A DNA stretch of 34,442 nt from Eubacteriales bacterium (GTDB lineage: Bacteria; Bacillota; Clostridia; Oscillospirales; Oscillospiraceae). The stretch spans positions 3,184 through 37,625 of the forward strand of contig JAUNND010000015.1 in the NCBI GenBank assembly GCA_030531595.1. Direction: 5' to 3'. The notes beneath the pieces were generated by a model, which was given only the letters and a program-made list of their open reading frames with translations, did no database searches and was not told the DNA's origin. Below, piece by piece: positions 7,639-23,718 of the stretch (within the stretch, counting starts at the first letter, position 1; each line of letters opens with the position of its first letter). The position numbers and the translations under genes were made by a program.

Positions 7639-7890
7639 TCAGTCACGAAAGAGCAGGAGCTTATACGGCTCAACGTTCAGCACCTGTGCGATGTTAAAAA
7701 GAAGCTCAAGAGATATGGGGCGGCAGAGCTTCGGGGCTTCGATCGCGCCAAGATGCGCCCGGCTGATACCGACCTTTTCGGCAAGCTGTTCCTGCGTTAT
7801 TCCTGCGTGCTTGCGGTAATATGCGATATTGTAGCCGATTTCGATATATTTCTGTGAATGATCAAAGCATTTCAGTTCATCCCGACTCAA
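7639..7890 (-). CDS. small XRE-family HTH regulator
   Basis: An 83-residue single-domain Cro/C1-type repressor. The helix-turn-helix reads GYNIAYYRKHAGITQEQLAEKVGISRAHLGAIE, with a trailing helix PISLELLFNIAQVLNVEPYKLLLF, which is typical. No sensor domain is present. The start is uncertain: the GTG at 7899 sits on top of the AAAGGGG, whereas the TTG at 7888-7890 has that SD eight bases upstream, so I prefer TTG. It is transcribed divergently from the BspA-like gene at 8032 across about 140 bp that hold the palindrome TATCT-CAC-AGATA, so local control of that surface protein is plausible but unproven. Confidence 0.85.
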   Translation of the reverse strand: MSRDELKCFDHSQKYIEIGYNIAYYRKHAGITQEQLAEKVGISRAHLGAIEAPKLCRPISLELLFNIAQVLNVEPYKLLLFRD

Positions 7891-7955
7891 AAGAACCACC
7901 CCTTTGTATTATTATAACTTTTGAACCGGGATAATAAATTATTTGGAACAAAACT

Positions 7956-7985
7956 TTTGCTATCTCACAGATAACAAGTTATAAT
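7956..7985 (+). promoter_or_regulatory. candidate promoter and operator of the BspA-like gene
   Basis: TTTGCT (7956-7961) and TATAAT (7980-7985) are 18 nt apart and read toward 8032. The spacer holds the inverted repeat TATCT-CAC-AGATA (7961-7973), placed where a repressor would block the polymerase. The adjacent XRE gene is the obvious candidate binder. The -10 is good; the operator is inferred from symmetry alone. Confidence 0.4.
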
Positions 7986-8031
7986 TAATTTACAACATAT
8001 CCCAGATAATAAATGAAAAGGAGAGCAGAAT

Positions 8032-9302
8032 ATGAAAAGCACTTTGATGCGTACTCTTGCCCTGCTGATGGCATTGGTGATGTGTGTGCGTCACTTCTGC
8101 CCGCATATGCCCTTGCAGAGGGCGAAGCAGAAGAACCGGCGGAAATCCCGGAGATACCCTCCGAGGAAGAGATTATTGATATCGAAAAGGTTGACATAAC
8201 TTCTAATAATACAGAAGAAGTTGTGCCGGAGGTCGAGATACTTTCGGACGTAATAGCGGAAGAAATTATTGAGCCTGTTGTTGAAGAAGCGGAAGAAAAG
8301 GCTCTGGGCATCAATGCACCCGAAACCGAGCTTGTTGTTGGCGAAACGATGCAGCTTATGAACGCCGCAGCCAACGGTTATGTTGCCTCCGGCGAGTGCG
8401 GCGAAAACCTCACATGGACGCTTGACGATAAGGGTACATTGACCATCTCAGGCACAGGAGATATGAACAATTATACCTTTTCAATAAGCACTGGAATCTC
8501 CGTTGATTCTCCCTGGTATGAAATAAGAAACAAAATAATCAATATTGAAATAGAATCTGCTGTAACGAGCATTGGAAGCTATGCCTTTTACAATTGCAGC
8601 AATCTAAAAACAGTATCCATCGGCAATAACGTAACAAGTATTGATACAACAGCCTTTGAAAACAGTGCAAATATAAATTCTTTTACTGTCAGCGAAGGAA
8701 ACAGCATTTTCTGCTCTCTTGATGGAGTAGTTTATTATAAAAGTAAAACAAAGCTCATTGTATTTCCAAGCGGGCAAACAGGTACTTTTGTCATTCCTTC
8801 TTCTGTAACAGAAATTGAAAGATATTCTTTTGCATTATGTCACTTATCCGAAATAACTATACCGGACAAAGTAAATAAAATTGGCGAATTTGCATTTTTT
8901 GCCTGTCATTTTGAGGAAGTAACCTTGCCGTCAGCCTTAGAGAGCATAGAAAAAGGTCTGTTCCAAAAGTCTGGAATAAAAAGTATTGTTATCCCGCAAA
9001 GTGTTAAAAGGATAGGCGGTCTGTCATTCTTCTCTTCTGCGCTTGAGGATGTATATTACAATGGCACAAAAGAACAGTGGGACGCAATTTCTTTCGGTTC
9101 ATTAAATGAAGACCTTTTAAATGCAAATATCCACTTCTTTGGTATTACATCTACCTACACCGTCACATACAACTTAAACGGCAGAGAGGGTGCACTCTCT
9201 GTACAGACGAAGACAGCGGTGCAGCCCCATCCTATATTCAGCTCACCCTCAACGGTCAGAGAGCCGTTGACGGTAAGGGTAGTACCGTCTCCGCAGATGT
9301 GA
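8032..9302 (+). pseudogene. BspA-like LRR surface protein, frameshifted in signal peptide
   Basis: A secreted BspA-type leucine-rich-repeat protein in two frames. The ATG at 8032, with AAGGAGAG at 8017-8024, encodes a signal-peptide start MKSTLMRTLALLMALVM. After the tract TGTGTGTG (8081-8088) that frame is lost, and the rest continues in the frame beginning CASLLPAYALAEGE. Removing one TG unit restores a perfect 422-residue precursor. The mature part has an acidic Glu/Ile-rich stretch, a CGENLTWTLDDKGTLTISG module, and LRR_5 repeats (SIGSYAFYNCSNLKTVSIG and similar). The ATG at 8013 lies inside the SD and is not credible. The LRR part (about 8490-9170) is much more AT-rich than its surroundings. 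The C-terminus is cut off where the gene meets the convergent partner near 9190. It may be phase-variable, decayed, or a sequence error. Confidence 0.75.
9182..9201. repeat. palindrome at the gene-gene junction
   Basis: CAGAGAG-GGTGCA-CTCTCTG is a perfect 7-bp inverted repeat with a 6-nt loop. It lies where reading on the plus strand stops resembling the LRR protein and on the minus strand stops resembling the beta-helix protein. No T-tract follows, so a terminator role is weak. Confidence 0.45.
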
Positions 9303-12084
9303 AGGCGTTTGTTCTGAGGTATTGTGACATCGCCGTCGATCGTAAGGTCATCACAGATAAACACTTCATACAGATCATCGGATCTCAGCATTTCTGCAAG
9401 CTCGTCCTCTGTGGAAGCCGCGTTGGAACAGAAGGCAGGATTGTTGTCCCATATACCGTGGCAGTCGACATTCTGAACGTTAACGAGTCTGATTTCGCCG
9501 TTGTTCTCGACACGGGAATTATCGCCGACGAAAATTCCGCCGTAGCCGAGCTCAACATTTCCGTTGACGATCAGGGTATTTGCCGGCATATCATAGCCCA
9601 CGCCGTCTATATTCACCCAACCGTCGCGGGTGTCGAGAGTACCATTAACGATGACGGTATTGCCGAAGTCGCAGATACCGAGACCGTTTACACCCAGAGT
9701 CTTCCCCTCGTCTACCGTAACGGTCACGGGGACGGCTCCGTTTTCATTCCAGCAGCATCCGGAACCGAGGTATACGTTTTCGGGGAAGTAGCCGCTGACA
9801 CTCAGATCGGTGCGGATGAAGATATCGAAATTATATGTGCTGTTGGACACTGCCATATTTTTGGCTTGGGACAGCTCCGAATCGCTCGAAACATCGACAT
9901 GATAGTTGTACTCGTTCTTATCGATGCCGGAAATCGATTCGTAGAGGTCAAAGTTATCGCCGTTTCTCGGAATAATGACGAATATATGCCGTCCGCCGCT
10001 CCGATTCTGATAGGCGTCACCGTTTATTTTCAGCTGACCGTAACCGCTCAGCTCCACATAGCAGTTGCGTGTGATGAAGAAGCCGGCGGCATCGGAGGCG
10101 TCGAGAGTACTGCCCTGATCGATGCGGAGTTCACCCTCCACGGTGAGGCAAGCGTTTTCGGTGAAGGTCAGAGTGCAGCCTTCGAGAAGGACAAGTCTCT
10201 TGCCCTCGGGGACGGTGAGATCGGAAGCTACCGTGAAGCTCTCGGTGACAAAGATATCGCCGTAATAATCGTCATCTTCGAGCCATGTTCTCAGAACATC
10301 CTCACTGTCGATGCTGTGGTTCGGATCGGTATACTCGATCGGGTTGCCATAGACGTCCGCGCTGATCGGGAAGAGCGTATCGGAAACGATACTGCCGAGG
10401 TTGTTGATGTTTCTGATGTTGACAAATGCTTCGGCGCAGATATGTACCTCGCCGCCCTCTTCAACGACCAGAGCCTGCGTTCCGTCAGGAGCGTTGATGC
10501 CGCTGTAATCGGCAAGAGTGAGCTTTCCGTTGACGATAAGGGCTGCGAAAGGCTCAAAGCGGACGCTGCCGTTGACCGTTACTTCGCCGTCGAGCAGCAG
10601 ATTTAACATCAGTCCGTCATAACCGCCCAGAGTCAGTATGAGATTAGAGGGAACGGTGAAGTCTTCTGTCAGTGTGATGCTTCTGACATTAGGGCTGTAT
10701 TCCTGTGTATTTATTCCGTGATTGCTTCGGAAAGCGACGTCAAAGGTCATATCGCCGTAGCTGTTTGCAAGAGAAATCGCACGGTCGAGAACGCTGTAAT
10801 CCGAGGCATGGAGCTTGAAGTGAATGTTATCAAGGTCGGTGCCGCTCACAACGCTCTTCATGGTTTCAACATCGCCGATATCGGTGACATTCAAGCCGAT
10901 CTTCTCGCCGTTTTCCGCAGTAAGGTTATTGTCGAGGACGACCGAGCCGCCGTCGACCCAGATGTGACCGTCGTTTCTCAGAACAACGGATGTTCCCGCG
11001 GCGGATACGTTCAGACGGCTGCCTTCGCCGCATACGTTTATTCTGCTGCCGTCGAGGATGAGTGCGGCATTTTCGCCGAAGGAGAGGCAGACGCCGCCGG
11101 TAACTGTGATCTCCTGACCTTCGCTCAGCGTGAGATCGTTATTGATCTCAATGTCATTTACGAGCTCGAAACGGTTCTGACCGTTATCAAGAGCCTCGCG
11201 CAGAGACGCTTCATCGAAAACGTCCCTTTCGGCAAATTCGACATCTAAGGTATCAAAGGGCGTATTGTAGGAGTCGACATATACATTTGCCCACAGCCTC
11301 TCGGTGCCTTTGTAAAGGATACTGCCGATATTGGTGCAGTCGGCAAAGGCGCCCACACCGATATATCCGAGACCGGACGGGAGGACCAGACGCTCCAGCA
11401 TACTCTCGCTTCCGCTTTCATAATTGACGGCAAAGGCGAAGCTGCCGATACTTCTGAGACTTTCGGGAAGCTCAAGCGTTCCGGACAGGAGGCAGTTGAA
11501 GAAGGCATTGTCACCGATGTACTCGATGCTGTCGGGCAGATCGACGTACCGGAGAGAGAAAGCTCAAAGTAATTATCGGACGAGAATGTGAGATAATTCT
11601 CGCTGACAGGCTCGGTTTCAAAGCTGAGGACATTTATCAGCGCGTCGTTGCCCTCACCGACGTAAACGTCGCTCCACTCTTCCTCAGTGCCGAGAAAGCT
11701 TGCCTCATTTAAGGATGTTTCGCCGAAGGCGTAGTCACCTATGCTCTCAACGCTCGCCGGTATCGTCACGCTTGTCAGACCGCATGAGGCAAAGGCGCTC
11801 TGACCGATGCTCACAATGCTGTCAGGCAGAGAGATCTGTTCTATATCACCAAATCCGGTAAATGCACAATCGCCTATCGTTGACACGCCCTCATTTATTA
11901 CGATCGCTTTGACCAGATTGTGGCAAACAGACCACGGTTTCTGAGTATCCGGTCCGGGTTGGTAATTATCCATCGCGCCCGTGCCGGAGATCGTCAGAGT
12001 GCCGTTTTCATCCAGCGACCATGTGAGGTTAGCGCCGCACTGACTGGAGAAATTTTCACCGTCGGACAGGTAAAGCTCTGTCTC

Positions 12085-12170
12085 AGTCTCCTCGACCTCT
12101 TCGATCTCAATCACTTCGACCTCAGTCACTTCGATCTCTTCGACCTCAGTCTCCACGGCTTCAACGACCG
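12085..12170. repeat. imperfect tandem repeat encoding VE(V/I)-rich segment
   Basis: Repeated TTCGACCTCAGTCAC-like and TTCGATCTC-like units encode the VEEIEVTEVEVIEIEEVEET region of the surface protein. All units keep a multiple-of-three length, so variation here would change linker length without shifting frame. Confidence 0.5.
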
Positions 12171-12779
12171 TGACCGTTTCGGCTTCGTTCACGGTGAGCT
12201 CTATCTCGCCGTATCTGCCGCTGCCGTCAAAAGCATCGGCTCTGACGGTCGCTGTACCGACGCTGACAGCCGTGACAAGTCCGTTCTGATCGACCGTAAG
12301 GACGGCCTCGTCAGAGCTTGACCAGACAGCATATGCGTCTGCGCTTAATTGCACAGTCTCACCCACCGTAAGTTCATCTGTCGGTGTTATGATCGTGAGA
12401 TACTGCGGAAGTTCCGGCGTAAAAACCGGAGGAGCGAGCTGCTCATCAACGACATCCGTGAGGATATCGATCTCTTCCGCAAAAGCTGCGGACGGGAAAA
12501 GGCTGAACAGCATTACAATGCTTAGGAAAAGCGCAAATACTCTTTTCATGATCTGCCTCCATAGTAATAAATATTGAAAAAATGAATTAACAAAGAAACG
12601 TCACGGAATAATAATCCATTTTTGTAATTTTACCTGTTAAAGGAAAAATTGTCGGACATTGTCAATAAATTTCATGAATTGTTATCGGCAAAATTTAAAT
12701 TTTCCCAACGTTATTTTTCACCCAAAAGCACATAATGAATTTGCGATGCATCATTTATGGGCAAGAGGGAGAAATCAAA

Positions 12780-13782: not shown

Positions 13783-13810
13783 TCAGCCGGAGTCTTTTGA
13801 CTCCGGCTGA
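13783..13810. terminator. terminator between spoIVB and the lipoprotein gene
   Basis: A 12-bp perfect stem (13783-13794 / 13799-13810) with a 4-nt loop. Six A precede it on the plus strand, so on the minus strand it ends in a strong U-run and terminates the lipoprotein gene. In the plus direction the trailing sequence is not T-rich, so it is weaker for spoIVB. Confidence 0.85.
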
Positions 13811-13829
13811 AATCATAGGTATAGGTATA

Positions 13830-14561
13830 TTATGCGTTGGGGAGGAAGCAGCGGAAATTCTGCTCGGTCAGGCTGACAAAATTGCCCGCATCGTCGGTGT
13901 TGACAGTGAACTTGTACTCATACTCGCTGTCGGAAACGGAGACGATCGTAGCGGTGATAACCTCCCAGGTGAGAGCGTCTTCCTTGCCGTCAAAAACCTC
14001 TTTGCCGGTGCCGTCGGCATTGAGCACGATGGTGTTGGAGGGGTTATCCTTCTCGGTAAGAGTTTTGTCGGCGAACAGCTTTGCAAGCTCCTCGGCATTG
14101 CCGCGGATGTAACGGACGCCGTCGGCGTTGTTGTATACGCTCAGTTCGCTTTCAAATACAAGATCCAGATCGCTGCTGCCGTCCTGATCTACGACATGAT
14201 CGTCACTCCCGACCTTGCACAGCCAGGTCTTGGCGACATTGCCGCCCTCGACCTTGACGCAGGCAAAACCGGCGTTTGCGTTGTCGGCAGTCTCAAAATA
14301 GATGTAATCGGCGTCCTTGGCTCCGTCCTTATACCAGTTGTCGCCCAGATGCGCTTCACCGCCGGAGGTGCCGAAATTGATAAGAGTGGGATCAACGCCC
14401 GCGTCGACCTTCTCGGCGAGTACGGGAGCCTGTTCCGGCGCCGTGTTCGCGGCCTGAGTCGGGGCAGCAGTGGCGGGGGCGGGCTCTGCGGGCTTCTCAC
14501 CGCACGCCGCAAGCGAGCAGACCATTGCGCAGACAAGAATGAGCATTACGATTTTTTTCAT
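13830..14561 (-). CDS. lipoprotein of unknown function
   Basis: A 243-residue predicted lipoprotein. The signal sequence MKKIVMLILVCAMVCSLAACG carries a clear lipobox (LAAC, Cys at residue 20). A Pro/Ala/Thr-rich tether (residues 23-47) leads to a folded domain of roughly 190 residues that I do not recognise. Its composition is acidic and Asn/Asp-rich with many aromatic beta-strand patterns (TLINFGTSGGEAHLGDNWY; LDLVFESELSVYNNADGVRYI). An AGGGAG lies about nine bases before the ATG, and a consensus-like promoter is at 14625-14653. It is monocistronic with its own terminator. A substrate-binding or surface-sensing role would be speculation. Confidence 0.85.
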   Translation of the reverse strand: MKKIVMLILVCAMVCSLAACGEKPAEPAPATAAPTQAANTAPEQAPVLAEKVDAGVDPTLINFGTSGGEAHLGDNWYKDGAKDADYIYFETADNANAGFACVKVEGGNVAKTWLCKVGSDDHVVDQDGSSDLDLVFESELSVYNNADGVRYIRGNAEELAKLFADKTLTEKDNPSNTIVLNADGTGKEVFDGKEDALTWEVITATIVSVSDSEYEYKFTVNTDDAGNFVSLTEQNFRCFLPNA

Positions 14562-14624
14562 TATTATGTTCTCCCTTCGAGATTAAAATAACAACAATTT
14601 AACTTAGTTATGTTTACCAAGCAC

Positions 14625-18310: not shown

Positions 18311-19807
18311 GTGAGAAGTATTATTGACTCCGAAAAAGACAGATGGACGGATATAAAACTACCCAAAGTTTTTTTTATTATACTGCTTGTGCTGTATGCC
18401 GCGTTTCATATATACGTAATTCAATATCATGAAGCATGGCGCGACGAGGCTCAGGCGTGGACGATAGCAAAAAATACTTCTCTGAGAGAGATGTTTTCCC
18501 TCTTGAGCGTGGAGGGACATCCGGCACTCTGGTTTTTGTTTCTGCGTTTTTTTGCAAAGCTCGGCCTTTCTTATCCGTACATAAGTTATCTCAGCCTTGC
18601 CCTCATGACGGCAGCGCTGGCTCTGCTGTTTTTTAAGTCGCCTTTTCCCGATGTTGTCAAGTTCCTTCTGTCCCTCGGCGCGGTGTTCTTTTACTTTTAC
18701 TCTGTCGTTTCCCGCGTTTATGCCATGGTAGTCCTGATCGTCATTCTTTTAGCGGTGTATTGGCCGCAGAAATATGAAAAACCGATTTTGTACGGTATTC
18801 TTATCGCTCTGCTTTTCCAGACCCATATTGTGATGTCGGGCATGGCTATCGGACTCATGCTGTGTATGCTTATAAGATGCACAAAGAAGGAGTGGCGCAC
18901 AAAACGGCAGATCACAGGGACGGCCATAGCGTTTTTGAGTCTGTGTCTGCTGATCCTTGAGCTGCTCCCCGCAAAGGATGCTCCCGCATCGATATCGGTT
19001 TCCGTTAAAGATGTTTTAAGTCAACTGAATATACAGTCACTGTATACATCCCTGTGTGTGATCTACAGTTTGATTTTCCACAGTTTTTTTGAGTCTGTTC
19101 CTTTGCAGCTGAAAATGGCTCTCCTCCTTGCGGTAATAACGGCAGTTTTGGCGATCATAGTGATAAAGAAACAGTTTCCCCACTTATCGGAAGCGCTTTT
19201 CGTTTGGATATGCGGCTTAGGAGCCGTTATCATCATTGTCGGCTTCATATACAGCGGGACACGGGAGATGCATTTCCTCTGTCACCTTATCAGCCTTTTT
19301 GCGGCGTGGGCGATATACACGGATGCAAATGACCGAACGGTAAAAACGGTCGTTGCCTGCCTTGCGTGTGTCCTTTCTCTTATGACAACAAATATGTGGA
19401 TCGATATGGAAGTGTTTGACATAAGAAATGCCTATTCCGGCGCGAAAAGCATAAGTATCATGATCCGGGATGAATTGCCCGAAAACAGCGTTATTCTCGT
19501 AAATGATGAACCGTTTAATGTTTCGGCTCTCGCTTATACGGAAGCATACAGGGATGATATCCGACTTTATAATGTCGATACGGACGCGCCGTTTTCGTGC
19601 TATACGTGGAAGAGGGATCATCCGCCCAAAACGGCGGAGGATATTGAACAGCTCGTCGGTGAGGTGTTTCCGGAGCAAAAGAATATTTTTCTCCTGCTGT
19701 CTGACGGAGACAGCAGCGGAGATATAGCCGACAGCTATGAAATGACAGCGGAGACCCCGCCGGGATCTTTAGCGGATGAAAATTTCAGATTATTCAAAAT
19801 CAGATGA
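18311..19807 (+). CDS. multi-pass GT-C fold glycosyltransferase-like protein
   Basis: A 498-residue integral membrane protein. About nine to eleven hydrophobic segments fill residues 18-370, with a soluble C-terminal domain. Between the first two helices is HEAWRDEAQAW with the Asp-Glu pair (about residues 45-46) characteristic of GT-C transferases of the PMT/ArnT type, which use polyprenyl-phosphate sugars on the outer face. The substrate is unknown. Start problem: the frame opens with GTG at 18311, but the only purine-rich SD (GAGAGGTGAG) overlaps that codon, and no ATG or TTG occurs in frame before the catalytic loop. Either the GTG is used with poor spacing or an ATT at 18320/18323 is the start. 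Follows the FAD enzyme by 15 bp. Confidence 0.82.
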   Translation: MRSIIDSEKDRWTDIKLPKVFFIILLVLYAAFHIYVIQYHEAWRDEAQAWTIAKNTSLREMFSLLSVEGHPALWFLFLRFFAKLGLSYPYISYLSLALMTAALALLFFKSPFPDVVKFLLSLGAVFFYFYSVVSRVYAMVVLIVILLAVYWPQKYEKPILYGILIALLFQTHIVMSGMAIGLMLCMLIRCTKKEWRTKRQITGTAIAFLSLCLLILELLPAKDAPASISVSVKDVLSQLNIQSLYTSLCVIYSLIFHSFFESVPLQLKMALLLAVITAVLAIIVIKKQFPHLSEALFVWICGLGAVIIIVGFIYSGTREMHFLCHLISLFAAWAIYTDANDRTVKTVVACLACVLSLMTTNMWIDMEVFDIRNAYSGAKSISIMIRDELPENSVILVNDEPFNVSALAYTEAYRDDIRLYNVDTDAPFSCYTWKRDHPPKTAEDIEQLVGEVFPEQKNIFLLLSDGDSSGDIADSYEMTAETPPGSLADENFRLFKIR

Positions 19808-19828: not shown

Positions 19829-20665
19829 GTGAAAAAGAAGCTTTTTTTCTGTTTAGCTGTTTGTATGCTCCTTTCGGCCTCCGCTTCGGCAGCGGACGAC
19901 TGCGAAACCCTCGGTCATGATTGGCAGATGGATGCGGGTATACTCATCTGCTCCCGCTGCGGTGCGGTCGATGACAGTGAAGAACGCGCCGCCATTGAAA
20001 TGGCGGAGAGTAAAGCTCCGGATAACACGGAGTCATACGCCGCCCCTTCCGAACCGACCGGATTTTTTGAGGCTTCCGAAGCGGAAGAAGCCTCCGACGA
20101 GCCTGACTTTGAGAAATTCGGCATCGTACCGGACATGAAATACAAAGAGGTGTATCCCTTCACGACCGGTACGCGCGATATGAGCGCCCTCAGTACGACG
20201 GGCGATATCTCGGTGACGGAGTTCGGGGTACTGCCGGCGGATGAAGAGCACCCCGGGCGCGACGGCTATAATTGGTGCTATGTGCTGATGCAGTCGATGT
20301 TTTCGGACACGAACGCACGCACGAACGGCGTGAAGGTCATGGCGCTGTGCGACGATTATTACAATACACGGCTCCGCGGCACGACGCAGAGGCTTGACGC
20401 GGACGGATATAATGCCTACACCGTGATCTTCAACGGCGAGGAAGCGGAATGCCGCTACAAAAGGACAGGCATATGGAGCGATTGGATGACGGACGAGAGC
20501 GGGAAGCGGGTCATTATGTACAGCTGTATGTGGGAGCTTGAAATTCCGGAAGGCTACGACGGCACCGTCGTCGGACTTTACTCGTCCGATGTCGACTGGG
20601 AGGACGGGGCGTATATCGATGAAGTGTACTCACCGGAGAGTTTCAGACTGTTCCGCGTGAGCTGA
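19829..20665 (+). CDS. secreted protein with N-terminal zinc-ribbon-like motif
   Basis: A 278-residue exported protein I cannot assign to a family. Signal peptide MKKKLFFCLAVCMLLSASASA is followed directly by C-x4-H-D-W...C-x-x-C-G, the short Cys/His knuckle (CETLGHDW...ICSRCGAV) seen repeatedly in clostridial extracellular proteins. An acidic low-complexity stretch follows (about residues 50-95), then a beta-rich domain (FGIVPDMKYKEVYPFTTGTRDMS; EGYDGTVVGLYSSDVDWEDG). The start is GTG at 19829, supported by GGGAG seven bases upstream. It lies 22 bp after the glycosyltransferase and is probably the last gene of that operon; no terminator is obvious before the EF-G promoter. Confidence 0.78.
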   Translation: MKKKLFFCLAVCMLLSASASAADDCETLGHDWQMDAGILICSRCGAVDDSEERAAIEMAESKAPDNTESYAAPSEPTGFFEASEAEEASDEPDFEKFGIVPDMKYKEVYPFTTGTRDMSALSTTGDISVTEFGVLPADEEHPGRDGYNWCYVLMQSMFSDTNARTNGVKVMALCDDYYNTRLRGTTQRLDADGYNAYTVIFNGEEAECRYKRTGIWSDWMTDESGKRVIMYSCMWELEIPEGYDGTVVGLYSSDVDWEDGAYIDEVYSPESFRLFRVS

Positions 20666-22884: not shown

Positions 22885-23718
22885 TTGAAAAATTCGGCGC
22901 TTAAAAATGTGATATGGGCAATGAGCATCATTGTGTGTCTTATCGCAGTGATCGTGGGGCTGCTCATAGCCTCCGTAAACCGCTACAACGGTTCCGGATT
23001 TGACAAAGAGGTCGATCTGCACATGAAAAACAGCTCTGCCTCCGGCGTCGTTCAGCTCACGGCGGGCGATATGCCCGACGGTGCCTCACTGAAATCTCTG
23101 GGCGAGACCGCCGACGCGGGCATGGAGTATATAGACAAGCTCACATTTCTCTGTGACAGCTCAGTTATCGGTATGCGCGATTACGGTCTGCTTTCCGGCG
23201 GCAAGGACACCTATCAGGTCTGGGGTACGAACTCCGGGACTCTGAAAATATCCGAAATAACATCGACCGATATCAAATATCCCTCAGACGGTTCACTTAT
23301 CTCCATTGCCGATTCCGCGATGATCGCAAAGCCGCCGATCCTTGTCATCTGCGTCGGGCAGGACGGACTTGCCGGCAGTGATGAGAATAATTTCAAGACC
23401 AATTATACCATGCTTATCAACTCGATCATGTCGGGCAGTCCCGATACACAGATCATCTGCTGCTCCATAAGCTCAGTTACCGAGAACTACACGGGCCCCG
23501 ACGGATTAACGGCGGAGCTTATCCGCTCGGCAAACAAATGGATCGAAGAAGTCTGCATGAGCACGGGAGTTTACTACTGCAACGCTGCCCACAGTGTTGA
23601 CAACGGCTACGGCTATGTCCACGGCACCTTCCTTTCCACGAACGGAAAGACATTGAACTCCACCGGCATCAGCGAGTTTATCAGCTATCTGAGAACTCAC
23701 GCGCTGGGCGGAATATAG
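22885..23718 (+). CDS. membrane-anchored SGNH-hydrolase-like protein, degenerate
   Basis: A 277-residue protein: one N-terminal membrane helix (about residues 10-31), a linker, then an SGNH/GDSL-like domain. The blocks can be recognised but are altered. FLCDSSVIGM replaces FxGDS(I/V)T, so Ser is kept and Gly lost. VICVGQDGLAG replaces GTN-G. LSTNGKTLNSTGISEFISYLRTHA replaces the usual DGIHLN-x-x-G, so the catalytic Asp and His positions are Asn and Thr. It therefore probably lacks esterase activity. The relatives act on envelope glycans. The start is TTG at 22885, well supported by GGAGG eight bases upstream. It follows the EF-G gene with only a hairpin between. Confidence 0.78.
   Translation: MKNSALKNVIWAMSIIVCLIAVIVGLLIASVNRYNGSGFDKEVDLHMKNSSASGVVQLTAGDMPDGASLKSLGETADAGMEYIDKLTFLCDSSVIGMRDYGLLSGGKDTYQVWGTNSGTLKISEITSTDIKYPSDGSLISIADSAMIAKPPILVICVGQDGLAGSDENNFKTNYTMLINSIMSGSPDTQIICCSISSVTENYTGPDGLTAELIRSANKWIEEVCMSTGVYYCNAAHSVDNGYGYVHGTFLSTNGKTLNSTGISEFISYLRTHALGGI

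Follow-up and report, generated by a model that had tools for sequence, protein, structure and literature searches.

A convergent pair of BspA-type surface-protein genes broken near four-unit dinucleotide tracts: probable recent decay

Background

When the signal peptide of a bacterial surface protein is interrupted by a frame shift at a short dinucleotide tract, is the gene being switched reversibly, has it decayed, or is the sequence wrong? The question is raised by a locus of a Eubacteriales bacterium (Oscillospiraceae) lying in a stretch of 34,442 nucleotides, the whole of which was analysed and is called the window below. The assembly amounts to 2.3 Mb in 121 contigs and is 92% complete. 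The kind of organism, together with the record of one distant relative (sheep rectum), suggests a gut habitat. An initial annotation made from the sequence had proposed that slipped-strand mispairing at a TG tract turns the surface-protein gene, here gene A, on and off, with simple decay or a sequence error as the fallback.

The start of gene A and the break in its signal peptide

A Shine-Dalgarno-like AGGAGA (8019..8024, plus strand), read directly in the sequence, stands seven bases upstream of the ATG at 8032, and the frame from this ATG opens with the first part of a signal peptide, MKSTLMRTLALLMALVM (8032..8082, plus strand), which is supported by the frame itself, by the alignment with relatives and by the codon score. 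The start that had been annotated, with its ribosome site, is retained. Its product is MKSTLMRTLALLMALVMCVRHFC, which ends at the stop 8197-8199 after 55 residues; as found, ATG 8032 would direct the synthesis of this short peptide and of no surface protein. The mature protein lies in a different frame (open over 8013-9302), which encodes CASLLPAYALAEGE and a BspA-type leucine-rich repeat protein. The codon score, trained on the 15 unbroken window ORFs with Pfam matches, changes frame at a window start of about 8056 (60-base windows, centre near 8085). In secreted relatives the signal peptide and the entire mature protein usually share one frame; in gene A they do not, and the frame break is confirmed as genuine in the given sequence.

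The position of the offset can be narrowed by comparison. The signal peptide of a relative from the same genus (L099), LVMCLSLFPASAFAEGD, aligns without gaps to the gene A residues LVM / CASLLPAYALAEGE, and that of a related BspA gene (L118), LVMCVTMLPTWAMGE, is likewise aligned gap-free with gene A. Because of these gap-free alignments, the offset was placed just after the ATG at 8080-8082. Its range, about 8083-8090, includes most of the (TG)4 tract found by direct reading and by the tract scan (8081..8088, plus strand) and extends beyond it, the alignment not distinguishing the tract from the two bases 3' of it. The tract is the likely site of the offset, as far as the alignment goes, which upholds the annotated break in the signal peptide and loosens its assignment to the tract itself. 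The interval 8032-9302 measures 1271 nt, with a remainder of 2 when divided by three; removal of one TG would restore the frame, as had been noted, and a one-base loss at the break would also fit.

The frame of the mature protein contains an ATG of its own at 8013, from which it is open, and gene A might begin there and specify a cytoplasmic protein. We regard this as very improbable: no Shine-Dalgarno site is seen upstream of 8013, a start there yields no signal peptide, and the frame that overlaps it from 8032 has both a ribosome site and a good signal peptide. In addition, among the matches listed none starts before residue 24, the self-match excepted, and residue 24 of the 8013 frame is where the signal-peptide remnant starts.

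The mature part of gene A and its junction with gene B

Downstream of the break, the mature frame (8083..9218, plus strand; ORF, Pfam and alignments) encodes CASLLPAYALAEGE, an acidic stalk, a BspA-type LRR_5 domain and the start of an InlB-type B-repeat (YTVTYNLNGREGALSVQTKTA). With 123.9 bits (E 4.9e-36; cut-off 27.7), the LRR_5 match (PF13306) places gene A in the BspA type, and its description as a surface-protein gene holds. No Pfam domain was detected in the final 71 residues of gene A; the B-repeat was called from the alignments to relatives and from the Flg_new match of a paralogue on contig C107 (see below). The LRR part (8470-9160) is AT-rich, about 32-42% GC in 200-base windows with flanks near 50%, as if it were a cassette of other origin.

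The mature protein had been taken to run to the stop at 9302; its reading frame does so, its coding sense does not. Between window starts 9180 and 9195 (60-base windows), the codon score moves from the strand of gene A to that of a second gene, gene B, and the homology of relatives to gene A stops at about residue 401-402 (9215-9218). The tail of gene B, which has no match among the ORFs of the family survey described below, is similar to a preceding segment of the same gene (44.9% over 49 columns, E 2.1e-10); the similarity stops at about 9218. Three alignments extend the homology of gene A to residues 413-416, some 35-40 bases farther; the junction was nevertheless set near 9218, on account of the codon score and the internal repeat of gene B. 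It is thus placed at 9210..9226, from the codon score, the B repeat and the homology of A, with the sense of gene A on its left, the sense of gene B, on the opposite strand, on its right, and both 3' ends absent. What follows in the frame of gene A (9219..9302, plus strand; ORF and codon score) is an antisense tail, and since the coding sense beyond about 9218 is that of the other strand, the stop at 9302 is not where the gene naturally ends. As judged from the sequence, each of the two genes reads into the antisense of the other, and the natural end is absent in both. A misjoin through a repeat was considered and rejected: the assembled genome holds no second full copy of the junction and only one 32-base match elsewhere, at 84%.

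Gene B

Gene B is a BspA paralogue read on the minus strand from 12549, convergent with gene A. Its first frame (11245..12549, minus strand; ORF, Pfam and codon score) carries an intact signal peptide, MKRVFALFLSIVMLFSLFPSAAFAEE, a Big_2 domain and an LRR_5 match of 62.1 bits, over the PF13306 cut-off of 27.7, and loses its coding sense below about 11560. The second frame (9155..11557, minus strand) contains the rest of the LRR_5 domain (51.1 bits, E 1.6e-13, cut-off 27.7), which resumes at about 11554, and a long repetitive part whose coding sense ends near 9218, ahead of the stop at 9155. The signal peptide is in frame with the first part only. The change of frame falls within about 11552-11563, bounded by the second-frame stop at 11566-11564 and by the point where the LRR match of that frame begins; the codon score also switches frame there. 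At this break lies a (TC)4 tract, GA on the plus strand (11552..11559, minus strand), located by the tract scan, the LRR_5 match, the stop codon and the codon score. Each gene has one frame break, and both shift in the same sense, equivalent modulo three to a gain of two bases or a loss of one. In either gene a dinucleotide tract of four units falls wholly or partly within the break interval.

Surroundings of the pair and paralogues in the genome

Pfam was run on twenty further ORFs of the window. In fifteen a match exceeds the cut-off and no break is apparent, although one of these ORFs runs off the contig end; three unbroken ORFs hold a homopolymer of seven or eight bases (6083, 24326, 27655). 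The XRE-type gene described next, also among the twenty, has a match as well. ORF 22885-23718 has a match below the cut-off only, and Pfam gave no match for ORFs 13797-14591, 18311-19807 and 19829-20665 (264, 498 and 278 aa), which leaves no basis for judging the break status of these four.

A small XRE-type HTH gene (7639..7896, minus strand; Pfam) is divergent from gene A. Its homologues in two genomes, G006 and G040 (L047, L048), are 79% identical at the protein level over 75 residues; within the 19 kb covered, none of the 14 further window proteins in the comparison has a match. Possible operators lie in the intergenic region between the regulator and gene A (7900-8010): the motif GATAATAAAT, present twice, and a weak inverted repeat whose arms are 7911-7931 and 7965-7985.

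The pair is flanked by genes for CNNM and SpoIVB. In the two genomes inspected, G120 and G129, these lie close together, separated by a gene for a methyltransferase (identified by Pfam in G129). A homologue of this methyltransferase (76% identity) is present in the genome under study on another contig, C70. Since the flanking genes are neighbours in two relatives with a different content between them, the A/B interval is a variable site.

The same genome (G000) has two further BspA-type LRR_5 genes. The paralogue on contig C67 (L051, 4579-7044) is open for 821 residues, with LRR_5, Big_2 and dockerin domains and a cohesin match just under the cut-off; that on C107 (L050, 3628-5088) has cohesin, LRR_5 and a B-repeat (Flg_new match) and runs into a masked stretch. 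They share with A and B the signal peptide, the CGEN..W module and LRR_5. The former is open to its dockerin end and the latter is in frame up to the masked stretch, whereas A and B are broken.

Relatives and the BspA family

No DNA-level orthologue of gene A, in which the tract of a sister lineage might be read, was found in 99 relatives, nor in 102 genomes of the genus. DNA matches to gene A occur in 11 of the 102 genus genomes, its own included, and all are short save the gene itself. At the protein level, LRR-type matches are found in 42 of 60 genomes (again with its own), the three best outside it being partial, at 39-40% identity; LRR_5 genes as such occur in 85 of the 102 genus genomes. 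Two larger collections, genome_contigs and viral_contigs, were searched with six short peptide patterns, whose reach is that of close relatives. The former yielded one relative, at 30%, the record from sheep rectum; in the latter, three pattern matches were obtained and none was confirmed.

The BspA family was surveyed in 48 sequences (634,684 bases; 68 ORFs with BspA hits), namely the window, seven earlier loci and 40 hand-chosen, non-random stretches, nearly all of them with the strongest LRR_5 matches. A signal-peptide heuristic sorted the 68 ORFs into 40 with a signal peptide in frame, the first frame of gene B among them, 23 without one and 5 that lie next to N or at an edge. This sorting is approximate: L109 resembles a signal peptide and was passed over, and L098, L114 and L130 are doubtful among the 40. 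None of the 40 in-frame signal peptides (first 105 bases) carries a dinucleotide tract of four or more units; five carry three units. The idea that signal-peptide breaks are a habit of the family was dropped, since gene A alone among the 23 has a signal peptide in another frame with a ribosome site. Real frame breaks inside the domain number three, that of gene B included, and cover 6 of the 68 ORFs; they lie at a short tandem duplication (L108), at no tract (L128) and at (TC)4 (gene B). A fourth candidate, L114, turned out to be two separate ORFs.

Dinucleotide tracts in the window and in the genus

Dinucleotide tracts in the window reach four units at most, a length found nine times: at the breaks of genes A and B (two) and, outside the pair, in unbroken ORFs with Pfam matches (five) and in one ORF without a Pfam match (two). 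For a window stretch of 10 to 20 bases, the chance of overlapping a four-unit tract is 0.4-0.7%; for tracts of three or more units it is 3.3-5.5%, which is the fairer base if one unit was gained. Among the 102 genus genomes, the pattern YTGGTGATGTGTGTG has only two matches, this window and an unrelated gene of G014 (L137). The latter has a five-unit TG tract within a frame that is open across the 300 bases inspected, and a tract of such size is thus by itself no sign of switching.

Decay, error or switching

Three readings have to be weighed, and they rank with decay first, sequence or assembly error second as the main rival, and switching third. In our judgement, genes A and B are probably a recently decayed, lineage-specific, convergent pair of BspA surface-protein genes, slippage at short repeats being the likely lesion. 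Indels by slipped strands at such repeats would have broken both genes, the junction would be a deletion between them, and the breaks would persist since the locus is lineage-specific and dispensable. Each gene can be read as one protein interrupted once; the disabling lesions, two in each gene (a frame break and a 3' truncation), are limited to this locus, as in a pseudogene; the 15 other window ORFs are unbroken, no DNA-level orthologue of gene A was found in the relatives and genus genomes searched, the site is variable, and frame breaks occur elsewhere in the family survey. However, one break apart, the frames of A and B stay open as far as the junction, as they would with an error or a switch too, and decay alone does not predict that both breaks should lie at four-unit tracts, though short repeats favour indels. 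It is somewhat unlikely that the two genes were merely misread, repetitive BspA genes, perhaps of mixed strains, having been misjoined with wrong tract lengths and a false junction. The fragmentation of the assembly into 121 contigs speaks for this, as do the crowding of two frame breaks and one head-on junction into about 3.5 kb and, in a survey of prokaryotic genomes, the expectation voiced in the excerpted text that unclustered, BLASTP-validated frame transitions are mostly sequencing errors (PMC3711429). That survey names sequencing errors or recent indels as the expected source of unclustered cases (PMC3711429, in the same excerpt). Yet the 15 other ORFs are unbroken, three of them in spite of a seven- or eight-base homopolymer, the junction sequence is single-copy in the assembled genome, and the contig flanks are neighbours in two relatives as well.

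A slipped-strand contingency locus, in which the TG tract of A, and the TC tract of B, would switch surface proteins and the assembly would have caught the off state, is improbable, and the stronger form, in which A and B are twin contingency loci each put out of frame by a single dinucleotide unit of a very short tract, is more improbable still. Both genes do break at four-unit tracts and in the same sense, and there are precedents in the BspA-like proteins of Ca. Mycoplasma girerdii, which vary via dinucleotide tracts (PMC5476646, excerpted text), and in the CT tract of the oipA signal peptide of H. pylori (PMC10564699, excerpted text). The tracts are, however, as the initial annotation itself cautioned, short for phase variation: the lengths printed in the excerpts are 5 or more units (PMC5476646) and 6 or 8 (PMC5953494). 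Four or more units are found in 0 of the 40 in-frame survey signal peptides, seven other four-unit tracts of the window lie outside the pair, five of them in unbroken, Pfam-matched ORFs, and the G014 gene keeps its frame open over a five-unit tract. Moreover, the 3' end is lost in both A and B, so that neither is an otherwise intact gene, and the neighbour of gene A is broken too. The proposed switch is not supported; the fallback, decay or sequence error, agrees better with a truncated gene A facing a broken, convergent gene B. Were the switch real, the bacterium would vary its surface proteins with tracts below the lengths usually searched, and searches for phase-variable genes would miss loci with very short tracts. 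To programmed recoding, by which ribosomal or transcriptional slippage would restore the frame, we give almost no credence: the shift has the same sense in both genes, but neither break shows, by eye, a classical slippery heptamer or a long homopolymer, and 40 BspA ORFs of the survey have their signal peptide in frame. Read as decay, the preferred interpretation, the locus adds another broken pair among BspA-type surface genes and cautions against inferring phase variation from a single out-of-frame assembly.

Comparison with known systems

Among the literature matches listed, as far as titles and the openings of abstracts go, none deals with short-tract switching of BspA genes in gut bacteria. 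In a phase-variation survey of Neisseria, the excerpted text prints cut-offs of 8 units (methods) and 6 (table footnote), and reports dinucleotide tracts as unchanged (PMC5953494). A known case of a dinucleotide tract within a signal peptide is, according to the excerpt, oipA of H. pylori (PMC10564699), in which, as here, a tract in the signal-peptide region decides the frame. The gene encodes an outer-membrane protein, and its CT tract is variable over hundreds of sequences, whereas a single genome is at hand here (PMC10564699, excerpt). The closest protein type is offered by the BspA-like genes of Ca. M. girerdii, for which the excerpted text places every observed repeat indel in tracts of five or more units (PMC5476646). 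Tracts of 5-12 units with length variants in the reads are described there (PMC5476646, excerpt), in contrast to four units and a 3'-truncated gene A in the present locus; in the same excerpted description, common to both are BspA-type LRR surface proteins whose frame is set at a dinucleotide tract, with some genes assembled in the off state.
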